Positions 21,071 through 61,060 of a DNA stretch of 64,000 nucleotides are shown in pieces (position 1 is the first letter of the stretch; the number at the start of each line of letters is the position of its first letter). Below the pieces are notes generated by a model, which saw nothing but the letters and a program-made list of their open reading frames with translations, was not told the DNA's origin and made no database searches. This DNA is from Gemmatimonadaceae bacterium (GTDB lineage Bacteria > Gemmatimonadota > Gemmatimonadetes > Gemmatimonadales > Gemmatimonadaceae): positions 1 through 64,000 of the forward strand of contig JAUQWM010000002.1 of NCBI GenBank assembly GCA_030835125.1, in the 5' to 3' direction. Position numbers and translations under genes: made by a program.

Positions 21071-21304
21071 CCGCAAGCAGTGCCAACTTAGTTCCTCCCC
21101 CCCGTGTCCAACCCTCGCCCCTCAGACAGCCGCCCGTTCGGTTCGTCCCACCCGAGTCGCCCGGCGCCTCCTCCCTCCCGTTGATTGCATGCGAATCCGA
21201 TACCGCCCAAGCCGTTGCCGCTCACGACCCCGGACGCCCCCTTCACGTCGTCGCCCGCGTTCACGCTGAGCATCTCCGCCACCCCGACACCGGGCCGGCG
21301 CGCG

Positions 21305-23698
21305 ATGCGTTTTCGCGCGGCCGCGCTGGTCCTGACCGCCTGGACCGTCTACGGACTCGTCCATGCGGCCTACTGGATCACGACCTCGGTTTCCCGCGAG
21401 AACTGGTCGTGGATGCTGGTCAGCGCCCTCATCATGGCCTGGACGTGGGCCGCGCTGACCCCGCTCCTGTTCGCGCTGGCCCGGGTGGCCGACCCGGCCC
21501 GGATCGGCTGGGCACGGTCACTGGCGGCGCACCTGTTCGCGCTGACCGTGGTGGCGCTGACCATGGGCGCGCTGCGACTCGCGCTCATCATGGCATTCTC
21601 TCCGTCCATGACGGAGGGCTGGCGCGTGCAGTTCGCCGCGGAACTCTGGCCGCGCGCCATCTTCTGGGCCGACGTCAACCTGTTCACGTACCTCGCCGTC
21701 GTCCTCACCGGGCGGGCGCTGGCCTCGCACCGGCGCTACCTCGACCGCACGCTGCGGACCCACGTCCTGGAGACGCAACTGGCGCGGGCCCAGCTCCACT
21801 TCCTCGAGCTGCAGCTCCAGCCGCACTTCCTGTTCAACTCGCTCAACGCGATCCAGGAGCTGGCCCACGAGGCGCCTAACGCCGCGGAACGGATGCTGCG
21901 CCGGCTGCACGCCCTGCTGGCGCGCTCGCTCGAGCGGGCCGGGCAGGACGAGCACTCGCTGGCCGACGAGCTGTCGGCGCTGGAGCCGTACATCGACATC
22001 CAGCGCACGCGCTTCGAGTGGCTGGCCGTGGGGATCCACGTCAACGCCGACACCCGCGCGGCGATGGTGCCACACCTCATCCTGCAGCCGCTGGTGGAGA
22101 ACGCGATCCGACACGGGCTGGCGGTACGCCAGGGGCCGGGCCACATCGAGGTGTTCGCCGAGCGCCGGGGCGACCGGCTCGTCATGCAGGTCCGCGACGA
22201 TGGCGTCGGGCTGTCCGTCAAGGCGGCGGGTGGCCGGTCCGGCATCGGGCTGCGGAACGCCAGCGAGCGGCTCCGCCAGCTGTACGGCAAGGATCACCGC
22301 TTCGAGCTGCGCCCGCGCGAGAACGGGGGCGTGATCGTCGAGATCGACATCCCGTTCCGGAACCAGCCGTCCACGGCGCCGGCGCCGTCGTGGACCGAGA
22401 AGCCGCGCTCGCGCGAGGTGATGCCGGAAGTCACGGTGGAGGAAGTGTCGGCCTGGCGCACCGGGGAGTTCGCGGCCGCCGTGCTGCCGACGCCCGTGTC
22501 CTCTCGGCCGCCGCTCGGGATGGACCGCCCGCGACACGTCCCGCCCGCCGACCCGGCCCGCGAGACCCGGGAGTCGGAGCCGTTGATCGCCGCCGTCGAG
22601 CGCGAGCACGAGCCGTCGGCGCCGTTGCCGATCCGGAGCAGCACGTGGCTGCTGCTGGTGGCCCTCTGGCTCGGCACCGCGGGCCTCTGGACGGTGCAGA
22701 TGCACGGGTACATCTGGCTCACCGATGCGGGGGCCCGGTTCTGGGACTGGAACATCGTCCGCCTGCAGGTGGCGGGCGCAGTGTACTGGACGGTGGCATC
22801 GTCAGGGGTCCTGGCCCTCGCGCGCCGGTTCCGCCTCTACGGCCGTCGCGCCGCCCCGCACCTCGCGCTCCACCTCGGCGTCGCCGTCCTGGTGTCCTTC
22901 GGGTTCCTGTGGGTGCTCCAGACGAGCGGGCTCAACTCGGGACCCATCCTGAACGAGTTCAACGTCAACCCGCTCACCGGGAACTTTTTCCTCTACTTCG
23001 GGCTCCTGGCCTGGTCGCACTCGCGAGACTTCGCCGCGTGGTACCGTGCCCGCGAGCTGGCGTCGGCGGAACTCACGTCGGAGATCGCCCGGTCCCGCTT
23101 CCAGGCCCTCTGCGTCCAGGTGCGCCCGCAGTTCGTCCTCGGCACCCTGGACCTGCTGGCCCGGCTGGTGCACATGGATGTCCCGCGGGCCGACCGGCTG
23201 ATCGTGCGCCTCGCCGACGTCCTCCGCCTGACGCTGGACACCGCTGCCCTGCGTTCGACGACGCTGCAGGACGAGCTCGACCTCGTCAACGCGAGCGTGG
23301 AAGCGCACCGCCTCGGGATCCGCCCCGGCGTGACGCTCCTGACCGACGTGCCCCAGGATACCCTCGGAACGCCGCTCCCCGCGCGCCTGCTGACTACCCT
23401 GGTGGACGACCTCCTGGCCGCGGATTCCGAGGGACAATCGGGCGCGGTGCCGCTGCTCGAGGTGCACATCAGCGCCGAACGGGGGATCGACGCGACACGA
23501 ATCCGTGTCCGCGGCGTAAGTGCAGGACCGGCCGCCGAGGGCGGCCTGCACGACTGGTGGCGGCGGAAGAGCGCCGCCGAGGCGGCCGTGGCCGACGCCG
23601 GCCCGCTCGTGACCGTCGCATTCCCGGACCGCGCCACCGCGGTCCTGATCGTGGCTGACAACCCACCGGCCGCGCGGGTCGAACCCGCCGCCGCCTGA
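21305..23698 (+). CDS. LytS-type sensor histidine kinase with a second, degenerate kinase module
   Basis: Membrane sensor kinase of nearly 800 residues, built as two LytS-like halves. Half one: four membrane helices, a helical phosphoacceptor domain with PHFLFN (His codon 21824-21826) and an ATPase domain with LVENAIRHG and DDGVGL. A Pro- and charge-rich linker follows, then half two: another set of membrane helices, the equivalent block reading PQFVLG (Gln codon 23129-23131), and an ATPase-like tail with LVDDLLA in place of the N box. The second half therefore lacks both phosphoacceptor His and the ATP-binding Asn and is probably a dead, regulatory module. An upstream TTG at 21185 is an alternative start. 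The partner regulator begins 12 bases downstream. Confidence 0.88.
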   Translation: MRFRAAALVLTAWTVYGLVHAAYWITTSVSRENWSWMLVSALIMAWTWAALTPLLFALARVADPARIGWARSLAAHLFALTVVALTMGALRLALIMAFSPSMTEGWRVQFAAELWPRAIFWADVNLFTYLAVVLTGRALASHRRYLDRTLRTHVLETQLARAQLHFLELQLQPHFLFNSLNAIQELAHEAPNAAERMLRRLHALLARSLERAGQDEHSLADELSALEPYIDIQRTRFEWLAVGIHVNADTRAAMVPHLILQPLVENAIRHGLAVRQGPGHIEVFAERRGDRLVMQVRDDGVGLSVKAAGGRSGIGLRNASERLRQLYGKDHRFELRPRENGGVIVEIDIPFRNQPSTAPAPSWTEKPRSREVMPEVTVEEVSAWRTGEFAAAVLPTPVSSRPPLGMDRPRHVPPADPARETRESEPLIAAVEREHEPSAPLPIRSSTWLLLVALWLGTAGLWTVQMHGYIWLTDAGARFWDWNIVRLQVAGAVYWTVASSGVLALARRFRLYGRRAAPHLALHLGVAVLVSFGFLWVLQTSGLNSGPILNEFNVNPLTGNFFLYFGLLAWSHSRDFAAWYRARELASAELTSEIARSRFQALCVQVRPQFVLGTLDLLARLVHMDVPRADRLIVRLADVLRLTLDTAALRSTTLQDELDLVNASVEAHRLGIRPGVTLLTDVPQDTLGTPLPARLLTTLVDDLLAADSEGQSGAVPLLEVHISAERGIDATRIRVRGVSAGPAAEGGLHDWWRRKSAAEAAVADAGPLVTVAFPDRATAVLIVADNPPAARVEPAAA

Positions 23699-23710: not shown

Positions 23711-24556
23711 ATGCCGATGCGCGTGCTGATCGTTGATGACGAGCCCATCGCCCGCCGCCGGATCAGCCGGCTGCTCAAGCTCGAGGACGACGTCGAGGTG
23801 GTGAACGAGGTGGGCAGCGGCACCGACGCGGTCGCCGCCATCCGGGAACAGCGCCCCGACCTCGTCTTCCTCGACGTCCAGATGCCGGACCTCGACGGGT
23901 TCGGCGTGGTCTCGGCGTTAGGCGAGCCCGAGGCGATGCCGGCGATCGTCTTCGTCACGGCGTACAACGAGTACGCGGTGAAGGCGTTCGACGTGAACGC
24001 GGTCGACTACGTGCTCAAGCCGTTCGACGGCGAGCGGTTCCGGTCCGCGTTCCAGCGGGCCCGCACCACCCTCGAGCAGAAGAACTCGGCCGAGGCGGGC
24101 CGGCGCATCAAGGCCTTGCTGGAGGAAGTCCTCGGCGAGCAGCGCGCCCAGGCCCTGGCGACCGCCGGCGCGACCGGCGTTCCCGCCGCGGCGCAGGTGA
24201 CGAATGTCCCCCGCGCGCGGTACCTGGACCGGCTGATGGTGAAGCACGATGGGCGCGTGTTCTTCGTGAAGGTGGCGGACGTCGACTGGTTCGAGGCGTC
24301 GGGGAACTACGTGCGGGTGCACGTCGGCCGCGTGTCGCACCTGATCCGGGAGACGATGCACGGCATCGAGGCCCAGCTCGACCCGAACCTCTTCGCCCGC
24401 ATCCACCGGGCCGTGATCGTGAACATGGACCGGATCCGGGAATTGCAGCCGTGGTTCGCCGGCGACTATATCGTGATCCTCCGCGACGGCCGGCAGCTGA
24501 AGCTGAGCCGGACGTATCGCGAAGCATTGCAGTCCCGAATGCATCGATTGGCGTAA
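23711..24556 (+). CDS. LytTR-family response regulator
   Basis: 281-residue cytoplasmic regulator. The receiver domain carries the acidic pair VDDEP, the phosphorylated aspartate in LVFLDVQMPDLDG and the lysine in VLKPFDGERF. A linker of about 60 residues leads to a LytTR DNA-binding domain (VADVDWFEASGNYVRVH, later RIHRAVIVN). It is the partner of the tandem LytS kinase just upstream; GAGGAG precedes ATG 23711. LytTR proteins bind direct repeats ahead of target promoters; no target is evident here. Confidence 0.94.
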   Translation: MPMRVLIVDDEPIARRRISRLLKLEDDVEVVNEVGSGTDAVAAIREQRPDLVFLDVQMPDLDGFGVVSALGEPEAMPAIVFVTAYNEYAVKAFDVNAVDYVLKPFDGERFRSAFQRARTTLEQKNSAEAGRRIKALLEEVLGEQRAQALATAGATGVPAAAQVTNVPRARYLDRLMVKHDGRVFFVKVADVDWFEASGNYVRVHVGRVSHLIRETMHGIEAQLDPNLFARIHRAVIVNMDRIRELQPWFAGDYIVILRDGRQLKLSRTYREALQSRMHRLA

Positions 24557-27194: not shown

Positions 27195-27536
27195 ATGTCC
27201 CTGATCAAGTTCCTCCTCTTCGGCCTGCTGGCGATGTTCGTGCTGCTGCCCGCGGCGGGGATCCTGATGCTGGTCGGCCTGCCGGTGTTCGTCGTGCTGG
27301 CCGTCGTGGGAGTGCCCGTGCTGGGGCTGCTGATGCTGGTCGGGCTTCCCCTCGTCGCGGTCTTCGTGGTCTGCATGGTCGCGCTGGGTCTGGTCTTCGG
27401 GACGCTCGGCCTCGTGGTCGGCCTTGGACTGGCCGCGCTGAAGATCGCCTTCTTTATCGCGCTGCCCGTCTTCGTGATTTCCTGGCTGGTGAGCCGGGCC
27501 GCAGGTCGGAAGCCGGCCGAACGCGCGACGTTCTAG
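27195..27536 (+). CDS. Small hydrophobic membrane protein
   Basis: 113 residues, nearly all Val, Leu, Ala, Gly, Phe and Ile. It appears to contain three to four membrane segments with a short basic tail (SRAAGRKPAERATF). Motifs such as LVGLPV and VGVPVLGLLMLVGLPL form an internal repeat. I do not recognise a family. A perfect hairpin with weak T-run follows, so it is probably a single-gene transcript. Being low-complexity, its protein status rests mainly on frame integrity and a good N-terminus. Confidence 0.6.
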   Translation: MSLIKFLLFGLLAMFVLLPAAGILMLVGLPVFVVLAVVGVPVLGLLMLVGLPLVAVFVVCMVALGLVFGTLGLVVGLGLAALKIAFFIALPVFVISWLVSRAAGRKPAERATF

Positions 27537-34077: not shown

Positions 34078-35211
34078 ATGGTCCCCACGCCCGGAATCCA
34101 GCTCGTTCGCCCGTCGCGGGGCGTCATCCTCGCGATCGGGGCGGTCGTGCTGGCGCTCATCGTGATCGGCTTTGTGGTCACGCTCGGCCAGCCGGCACCC
34201 GTTGCGGGACGCGGGCAGTCGCTCATGCGGATTCCCGCGCCGCCCTCGGACCTGGGGACGCTGCTGCGCCGGCTCGGTGTGGGTTCGGTCGCCTGGTATG
34301 CGTGCGCGCTCGCCATTCCGCCGCTCTGGTGGCTGGCGTACCGATTCCCGCTGACCGGTCCGCACGCGGCGCGCGCGTTGTCGCTGCACCTGTCGGCGGT
34401 CCTGGCCATGATCGGCGCGGCATCGGTTGCGCACTATGTGCGCGCGTACGGTGGGTCGCCTGTCGCGCCGGCGTTCCTGGGCTTCCTGCCGGTGGCGCTG
34501 GCATCGAATGCGGTCCCACTGCTCGCGGTGGCTGCCGTCGTACACGGGCTCGAAGCCCGTCGGCGGGCGGTGCGGAGTGCGCTCGAGACACAGCGCCTGC
34601 GCGCCGAACTCGCCGATTCACGCCTGGCGGCGGTGACGGCCCAACTCCAGCCACACTTCCTGTTCAACACGCTCCAGAGCATCTCGACCCTGATCCATCG
34701 CGATCCGATGGCCGCCGACGCCATGCTGGTCAAGCTGTCGGACCTGCTGCGCGAAGTGCTGCGACGCTCGCAGAGCGGGCTCGTCCCGCTGGACGACGAG
34801 ATCCACATGACGGAGACGTACCTCGACCTCGCGCGGATCCGGTTCGGGGACCGGCTGCGGGTGGTGCTCGACATCGAGGTCGCAACGCGCCGCGCGCTGG
34901 TGCCGGTCCTCCTCCTGCAGCCGCTGGTGGAGAACGCGTTGAAGCACGGCGTCGGGCGCATCGCGGCCGGGGGCTCGGTGGGCGTGTCGTCGCATCGCGT
35001 GGACGGCCACCTCGCGCTCACGGTCTGGGACGACGGCGCGGGCCTCGACCGCGCGGTGCCTGACGAGAGCACCGGCCTGGGGAACACCCGGGAGCGCCTC
35101 CGTCATGCGTTCGGCGACGACCAGGCGCTGACGCTGCGTCCCCGGCCCGCCGGCGGCGTCGAGGTCTCGATCCGCGTGCCGCTCCGATTCGCCGCGGCGG
35201 GACCGTCATGA
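34078..35211 (+). CDS. LytS/YehU-type sensor histidine kinase
   Basis: 377-residue membrane sensor kinase. Membrane segments: 16-37, about 70-90, 98-118 and 130-155. The catalytic part has PHFLFNTLQSIS (phosphoacceptor His), LVENALKHG (N box) and DDGAGL plus GLGNTRERL (G boxes), so it should be active. The stop codon overlaps the start of the partner LytTR regulator (ATGA). It is transcribed divergently from the permease/secreted-protein operon. Confidence 0.93.
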   Translation: MVPTPGIQLVRPSRGVILAIGAVVLALIVIGFVVTLGQPAPVAGRGQSLMRIPAPPSDLGTLLRRLGVGSVAWYACALAIPPLWWLAYRFPLTGPHAARALSLHLSAVLAMIGAASVAHYVRAYGGSPVAPAFLGFLPVALASNAVPLLAVAAVVHGLEARRRAVRSALETQRLRAELADSRLAAVTAQLQPHFLFNTLQSISTLIHRDPMAADAMLVKLSDLLREVLRRSQSGLVPLDDEIHMTETYLDLARIRFGDRLRVVLDIEVATRRALVPVLLLQPLVENALKHGVGRIAAGGSVGVSSHRVDGHLALTVWDDGAGLDRAVPDESTGLGNTRERLRHAFGDDQALTLRPRPAGGVEVSIRVPLRFAAAGPS

Positions 35212-60004: not shown

Positions 60005-61060
60005 ATGGCTCGAGGACGCTGGGAGGTCACGGCGACCCGCGCGTCGGCGGGGGTCCTGCTGCTCGCGTGGATTCCGATCTGGGCGCTCTACGCGCTGCTG
60101 ATCGGACCGGCGAACCCCGTGCACCCTGGCGGGACGCTGGCGATGGCGGCGTTGATCGCGTTTCGGAGCATCGGGATCGCGGCGCTGCTCGGGTTCGGGG
60201 TCAAGCGGGTGACGGACCTCGTGCCATGGCCGCACCCGTTCCAGTTGCGGTTCGCGTTGATCCACCTGGGCGGGGCGCTCGTCTACGCGCACGCCTGGTT
60301 CGTGCTGGCCGCCGCGCTGGAGAACTTCCTGCGGCCGGGCGCCCTGCACGCGTACTTTGCGATGATCGTCCCGAACCTCGTGCTCGGGATGTGGCTCTAC
60401 GTCATGATCGCCGGCACCCTGTACGCCGCCCGCGCCGCGCGTGCCGTGGCGCAGGCAGAAGCCAACGCGATCCGCGCCCAGCTCGCGGCGCTGCGATCGC
60501 AACTCAACCCGCACTTCCTCTTCAACGCGCTGCACGCCGTGGTGCAGTTGATTCCCGATCGACCGCGGGATGCGGCGCGTGCCGCGGAGCTGGTCGCGGG
60601 GCTGCTGCGCACGTCGATCGAGGAGGACAGGGACCTGGTCCCCGTGGCCGAGGAACTGGCGTTCGTGCGCCGCTACCTGGAAGTGGAACGGATGCGATTC
60701 GGTGAGCGCCTCGAGGTTCGCATCGACGTCAGCGACGCCGCGTCGCAGGCCGAGGTTCCGTCCTTCGCGATCCAGAGCCTTGTAGAGAATGCCGTCCGGC
60801 ACGGGGCGGCGCCGCGGGTGGCTCCCACGACCGTGACCGTCACCGGCCGGGTCGAGGCGGGTCGGCTGTCCGTGACGGTCGCCGACGATGGCGCCGGCGC
60901 CGCCGGGACCACCGCGCCGGACGCTCGGGGAACCGGGCTCCGTCACCTCCGCGAGCGACTCGGCGTCCTCTTCGGGTCGCAGGCGTCACTCACCGTGGAG
61001 ACCACACCGGGCGCGGGATTCACCGCGCGGCTGTCGCTTCCGGTGGGCGACGCGCGATGA
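60005..61060 (+). CDS. LytS/YehU-type sensor histidine kinase
   Basis: 351 residues. Four membrane segments in the first 140 residues, then PHFLFNALHAVV (phosphoacceptor), LVENAVRHG (N box), DDGAGAAG and GTGLRHLRERL (G boxes); all key residues present. The stop overlaps the start of the LytTR partner (ATGA). It lies downstream of the DUF1579-like gene and close to the ABC exporter. Confidence 0.93.
   Translation: MARGRWEVTATRASAGVLLLAWIPIWALYALLIGPANPVHPGGTLAMAALIAFRSIGIAALLGFGVKRVTDLVPWPHPFQLRFALIHLGGALVYAHAWFVLAAALENFLRPGALHAYFAMIVPNLVLGMWLYVMIAGTLYAARAARAVAQAEANAIRAQLAALRSQLNPHFLFNALHAVVQLIPDRPRDAARAAELVAGLLRTSIEEDRDLVPVAEELAFVRRYLEVERMRFGERLEVRIDVSDAASQAEVPSFAIQSLVENAVRHGAAPRVAPTTVTVTGRVEAGRLSVTVADDGAGAAGTTAPDARGTGLRHLRERLGVLFGSQASLTVETTPGAGFTARLSLPVGDAR

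Follow-up and report, generated by a model that had tools for sequence, protein, structure and literature searches.

A conserved tandem histidine kinase-pseudokinase encoded beside a LytTR regulator in Gemmatimonadaceae

Organization of the tandem kinase locus

The window analysed here, a 64,000-nucleotide stretch of a Gemmatimonadaceae bacterium genome (GCA_030835125.1, contig JAUQWM010000002.1), contains a gene whose product carries two kinase modules in succession (Table 1). The domain order is four TM helices, DHp, CA, a linker of 88 residues, four further TM helices, pseudo-DHp and pseudo-CA. The start codon is uncertain: the ATG at 21305 is plausible, and the frame is already open from the TTG at 21185. 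A response regulator gene starts 12 bases past the kinase stop codon, placing a LytTR regulator beside the kinase as in LytTR two-component systems. Two more PF06580 kinases lie within the window (34621-34857 and 60476-60712), and the genome holds six in total, one of them tandem.

Table 1. Positions and supporting evidence for the features of the tandem kinase locus.
Feature	Position	Strand	Evidence
Tandem kinase-pseudokinase gene, 797 aa	21305..23698	+	Single stop-free frame; PF06580 matched twice
First membrane domain, four predicted TM helices, residues ~5-140	21317..21724	+	AlphaFold2 helices, hydropathy
Active DHp, catalytic His174 in PHFLFN (21821-21838)	21776..22024	+	PF06580; His in 22/22 active halves
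Active CA: LVENAIRHG (22091-22117), DDGVGL (22196-22213), SGIGLRN (22238-22258)	22025..22360	+	HATPase_c, motifs, GanS fold match
Linker, near-neutral, pLDDT <50 over most	22361..22624	+	dN/dS in seven pairs; AlphaFold2
WRTGEF linker motif, residues 384-389, sole invariant linker residues in type A	22454..22471	+	Type A alignment
Second membrane domain, four predicted TM helices	22634..23020	+	AlphaFold2, alignment A1
Pseudo-DHp, Gln609 replaces His in RPQFVLG (23123-23143)	23066..23308	+	PF06580; His in 0/24 second halves
Pseudo-CA, N-box Asn lost (LVDDLLA, 23399-23419), HATPase fold in model	23309..23659	+	Alignment A1, motifs, fold comparison
Response regulator, receiver + LytTR	23711..24556	+	Pfam PF00072, PF04397; same position in relatives

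An earlier sequence-only reading had described the gene as a tandem LytS kinase with a dead second half, naming PHFLFN and LVENAIRHG in the first module and PQFVLG and LVDDLLA in the second. All four motifs were located in the translation, and the second module does have membrane segments of its own, with four TM helices predicted by AlphaFold2 for each half. The label LytS fits the transmitter, which is a PF06580 domain of HPK8-like type, but not the sensor: neither 5TM-5TMR_LYT (PF07694) nor GAF was found in the whole protein or in either half at Pfam E values up to 1, and both belong to the strict definition of the LytS family given in passages of PMC5552118. The chain likewise shows no receiver or HPt Pfam match at E up to 1, which sets it apart from hybrid kinases and phosphorelay proteins. 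The first half has the catalytic His, N box and G boxes of an active kinase, matches PF06580 at E 4.3e-20, is the only half matched by HATPase_c and, as a model, compares with the GanS fold at Z 15.7.

The second half retains a predicted kinase fold without the catalytic residues

The second half alone still matches PF06580 (E 1.2e-7; 32.3 bits against a cut-off of 25.2). The N-box Asn is missing from 8/8 second halves in alignment A1 and, a point beyond the sequence-only reading, the DxGxG and GIGLxN boxes, both present in the first half, are absent as well. At the aligned catalytic position, His occupies 22/22 active halves and 31/31 single kinases, compared with 0/24 second halves (24 of the 25 were counted, G170 being cut before the His column), where it is replaced by Glu (10), Pro (7), Gln (6) or Ala (1). 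No relative with the His restored was therefore found among them, an outcome named in advance as contrary to the idea of a dead copy.

The kinase ancestry of the second half is evident from profile comparison: second halves match single kinases at E 1.3e-41, whereas five column-shuffled controls gave 0.0077 to 0.83, and GanS was the sole match by sequence in a PDB search with the second-half profile (E 7e-6). The AlphaFold2 model of the whole chain, built from an alignment of 8 rows, places four TM helices, a DHp hairpin and a CA in each half; it is confident per domain only (pLDDT 68.7, pTM 0.45), the relative placement of the halves is not fixed, and the two VIA rows of the structure comparison that span both halves (rmsd 12.1 and 13.2) carry no weight. 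Modelled alone, the second half reaches a pLDDT of 79.1 and its best match is the GanS kinase core (Z 13.1, 164 residues, rmsd 5.4). The pseudo-CA model compares with CA domains at Z about 11, and in these models the pseudo-CA retains the HATPase fold.

Purifying selection on the second half and drift of the linker

Selection was followed by pairwise NG86 estimates of dN/dS with a custom script, and the values are rough, as many pairs are close to saturation in synonymous changes. In the second half, dN/dS was 0.09-0.50 for the membrane domain (seven pairs), 0.10-0.40 for the pseudo-DHp (six pairs; a seventh, of only 23 codons, gave 0.035) and 0.11-0.36 for the pseudo-CA (six pairs). The corresponding values in the first half, from six pairs each, were 0.15-0.53 for the membrane domain, 0.02-0.21 for the active DHp and 0.13-0.39 for the active CA. 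The linker gave 0.30-1.34 (seven pairs). Purifying selection acts on the second half, and the linker is near-neutral. A per-region comparison of six of the nine type A rows (the types are set out below) shows that both membrane domains are conserved and that within the second half the pseudo-DHp is the best conserved region (mean identity 0.65). With its kinase fold, lost catalytic residues and maintenance by selection, the second half qualifies by sequence and modelled fold as a histidine pseudokinase.

Linkers of 20-86 residues occur among the tandem proteins compared. When six full-length type A proteins are aligned, only five positions of the 88-residue linker are invariant, and these all fall inside W-[RK]-T-G-E-F. 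The motif is found in 8/8 type A linkers of the set (one with a terminal Tyr) and also on the G026 contig; it was not found in the compared type B, intermediate or other linkers, of which that of G040a has a partial look-alike. A natural guess is that WRTGEF is a linear docking motif.

Recurrence of the tandem architecture in Gemmatimonadaceae

The same tandem architecture, when sought in relatives, recurs in 10 of the 35 sampled genera of one family, identified as Gemmatimonadaceae from named matches. Our catalogue of 25 tandem proteins comprises 9 of type A, 2 intermediate (G015, G042), 11 of type B and 3 others (G040a, G016a, G102). Type A and intermediate proteins have both pseudo-DHp and pseudo-CA, a layout detected in 11/179 family genomes with the second-half profile (E <= 5e-67) and, with a narrower profile, in 9/395 genomes sampled from the phylum, each of them belonging to that family. 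A named-genome scan with two type A peptide patterns returned 7 loci, all named as Gemmatimonadaceae, Gemmatimonadetes or Roseisolibacter. In type B proteins the active half is followed by a second membrane domain and a pseudo-DHp, where the chain ends without a CA; this lineage thus retains the membrane domain and the pseudo-DHp, including the Pro of PxF. Although type B second halves gave no Pfam match above cut-off in 5/5 tested, their profile matches single kinases at E 2.7e-29 (five shuffled controls, 0.15-0.85) and type A second halves at E 1.3e-33. The tandem layout is therefore easily overlooked in annotation.

Both halves lie in one frame in 22/25 catalogued proteins, and the other three (G026, G042, G107) begin at a contig end. 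In no relative were the halves found as separate genes, which had been set out beforehand as evidence against a tandem protein; they are fused wherever both are visible. An active-half profile run against the 179 family genomes gave 22 matches at E <= 3.3e-115, spread over 20 genomes of 10 genera, followed by a gap to 2.8e-89. Above the gap, 20/22 matches lie in tandem frames and two (G026, G042) run off a contig end, the second half of each starting on another contig, which opens with a repeat of the residues that end the first. Below it, most of the matches listed are single kinases of ~360-530 aa; there are also some longer frames, several of which were inspected and contain one kinase core each (frames such as G163, of 1032 aa, lie outside the inspected set). 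Since the profile was built from 17 of the same tandem proteins, this search tests whether single-module relatives join the clade, and none did. Loss of the second half was not seen above the score gap in the 179 family genomes; the divergent tandem proteins G040a and G102 do not score above it. The nearest relative, G001, the one other genome of the same genus (72% complete), gives no test, as it has no type A match.

A common origin of the halves was addressed with a tree of 75 rows: active halves from 22 of the 25 proteins, the 22 of 25 second halves longer than 200 residues (G016a, G170 and G200 left out) and 31 single kinases, which were collected for their similarity to second halves or for their position and do not amount to a census. 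The active halves form one clade (100/100), as do the second halves (100/99), and the same subgroups are mirrored in both (the window protein with G011; G052 with G201; G029-G053-G199; the type B set), so the halves have been co-inherited since before the genera split. The sequence tree thus shows one origin of the tandem arrangement, with its halves inherited together. The sequence-only reading had the pseudokinase fused to its active ancestor; the fusion stands, but the ancestry is unproven, since second halves are placed among single kinases, apart from their own first halves, while an AU test did not reject a single clade of all tandem halves (p-AU 0.269). Internal duplication and fusion of paralogues are both possible sources of the second half on these sequences.

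The regulator also recurs. A LytTR-type regulator lies <=100 bases downstream in 10/10 type A or intermediate genes whose downstream DNA is visible and in 9/10 type B genes (the exception is G014b), that is, directly downstream in 19/20 visible cases of the main types combined.

A proposed single-chain pseudo-dimer

The tandem kinase-pseudokinase is real and conserved. The dead copy has lost its active site and is nevertheless retained under selection in related bacteria, so it is probably not debris but a permanent partner built into the chain, or a second sensor. As a plausible mechanism, the first half would autophosphorylate on its His and hand the phosphate to the downstream LytTR regulator, while the second half would supply another membrane sensor of four helices together with a non-phosphorylatable DHp hairpin. 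This pseudo-DHp would pair with the active DHp, most simply within one chain, to form an asymmetric, permanent pseudo-dimer that has a single phosphorylatable His, and would set the switching of the active half. We infer the pairing, its intrachain geometry, the sensing and the phosphotransfer to the neighbour, and give this explanation as a whole a probability of about 0.5. The retention pattern fits it: as one lineage lost the second CA and kept the membrane segments and pseudo-DHp, these are suggested to be the working parts, and since the membrane domain and DHp hairpin are kept longest and the nucleotide domain is not, a partner for sensing and pairing fits where a catalyst does not. A more specific version, which we put slightly below even odds, is that a single early fusion in a Gemmatimonadaceae clade created an obligate single-chain histidine-kinase heterodimer, with a one-His bundle, two sensors and one output, in which WRTGEF might dock the halves or the regulator.

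If true, the single-chain heterodimer would be the histidine-kinase counterpart of the layout of JAK kinases, animal protein tyrosine kinases without homology to these proteins in which a kinase and a pseudokinase follow each other along a single chain. Histidine kinases are nearly all symmetric homodimers, so it is hard to ask which protomer senses or phosphorylates and whether one His suffices. A pair that occurs naturally in one chain, has one dead core and is present in many genera would make such questions testable by mutating the halves singly, and it offers graded decay, from Gln or Glu in place of His with a CA to no CA whatsoever.

With the intrachain pseudo-dimer at about even odds, the alternatives rank lower. 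The first of them, which we consider rather unlikely, is that two chains pair active DHp with active DHp while the pseudo halves pair together, serving through the linker as an extra sensor and dimerization handle. Ordinary histidine kinases are homodimers (as also described in passages of PMC12675982), the linker lengths could suit either geometry and both membrane domains are conserved; nothing decisive stands against this arrangement, as a DHp hairpin that outlasts the CA fits it and the intrachain pseudo-dimer alike. Considerably less probable, by analogy with DivL, is that the pseudo half acts as a docking site that binds the regulator, perhaps in phosphorylated form, and gates the active half. 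The DHp is the place where regulators dock, and no other region of the second half is as well conserved as the pseudo-DHp; DivL, a separate dead kinase that still signals, reads a regulator, but according to passages of PMC4211667 it has lost the His only (to Tyr) and keeps all other boxes, whereas here the N and G boxes are gone too. That the second half is a functionless, decaying duplicate agrees with the loss of its catalytic motifs and, in one lineage, of the CA, but is very improbable given purifying selection on all three of its domains while the linker drifts, and given that the membrane domain and pseudo-DHp persist in 10 genera. A fusion of two genes through sequencing or assembly error is scarcely credible with a common frame recurring in separate genomes, and nothing was found in its favour.

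Relation to known kinases

The tandem protein resembles several described systems and differs from each. The HPK8 or LytS-LytTR pairs BtsS/BtsR and YpdA/YpdB share with it the HPK8-like PF06580 transmitter, the membrane kinase and the LytTR regulator; they have one kinase core with 5TM-5TMR_LYT and GAF input (passages of PMC5552118), whereas the protein described here has four plus four TM helices, neither input domain and an extra dead core. The GanS kinase core (6swj, 6swk), the closest solved structure to both halves, is a single active core. FasB/FasC of group A Streptococcus likewise joins an active kinase and a proposed pseudokinase on one regulator, but as two separate heterodimerizing proteins rather than one chain, and FasC keeps a phosphorylated His and has a dispensable kinase domain, whereas here the His is lost; GacS/RetS is mentioned in the same source as another heterodimer of separate proteins (excerpts of PMC12675982). 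ChrS(CA-fs), too, is a separate dead kinase that still signals, and is a laboratory-evolved mutant (part of PMC9491836). Non-hybrid kinases with two transmitter domains numbered 2/15704 in a 2010 survey, as quoted from a section of PMC3018481, and the myxobacterial TRTR and TRTTRT proteins described in part of PMC4603909 include receivers. Among the matches listed in searches of an open library for tandem, dual, degenerate or pseudo histidine kinases and for Gemmatimonadaceae with LytTR, there was no report of a tandem LytS-type kinase-pseudokinase.

Divergent members and neighbouring genes

Three catalogued proteins differ from the main types, and no regulator lies downstream in the two visible cases among them. 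In G040a (L038:46-2652) and G102 (L124:4828-7002), the G1 box of the active half is also unrecognised. Both observations speak against the mechanism proposed above. The G040a frame continues from the pseudo-DHp into an apparent separate secreted or lipoprotein gene, which looks like a frame fusion or a sequence error. The second half of G016a (L039:5566-6063) is short, has fewer membrane helices and carries RPPF instead of RPHF, perhaps a further stage of reduction.

Beyond the regulator, the neighbourhood has nothing common across genera save, weakly, a small hydrophobic ORF. In the window this ORF encodes 113 aa (27195-27536), and look-alikes occur near the tandem kinase in G011, right after the regulator, and in G052; it could be a target gene, or the resemblance could be chance hydrophobic similarity.
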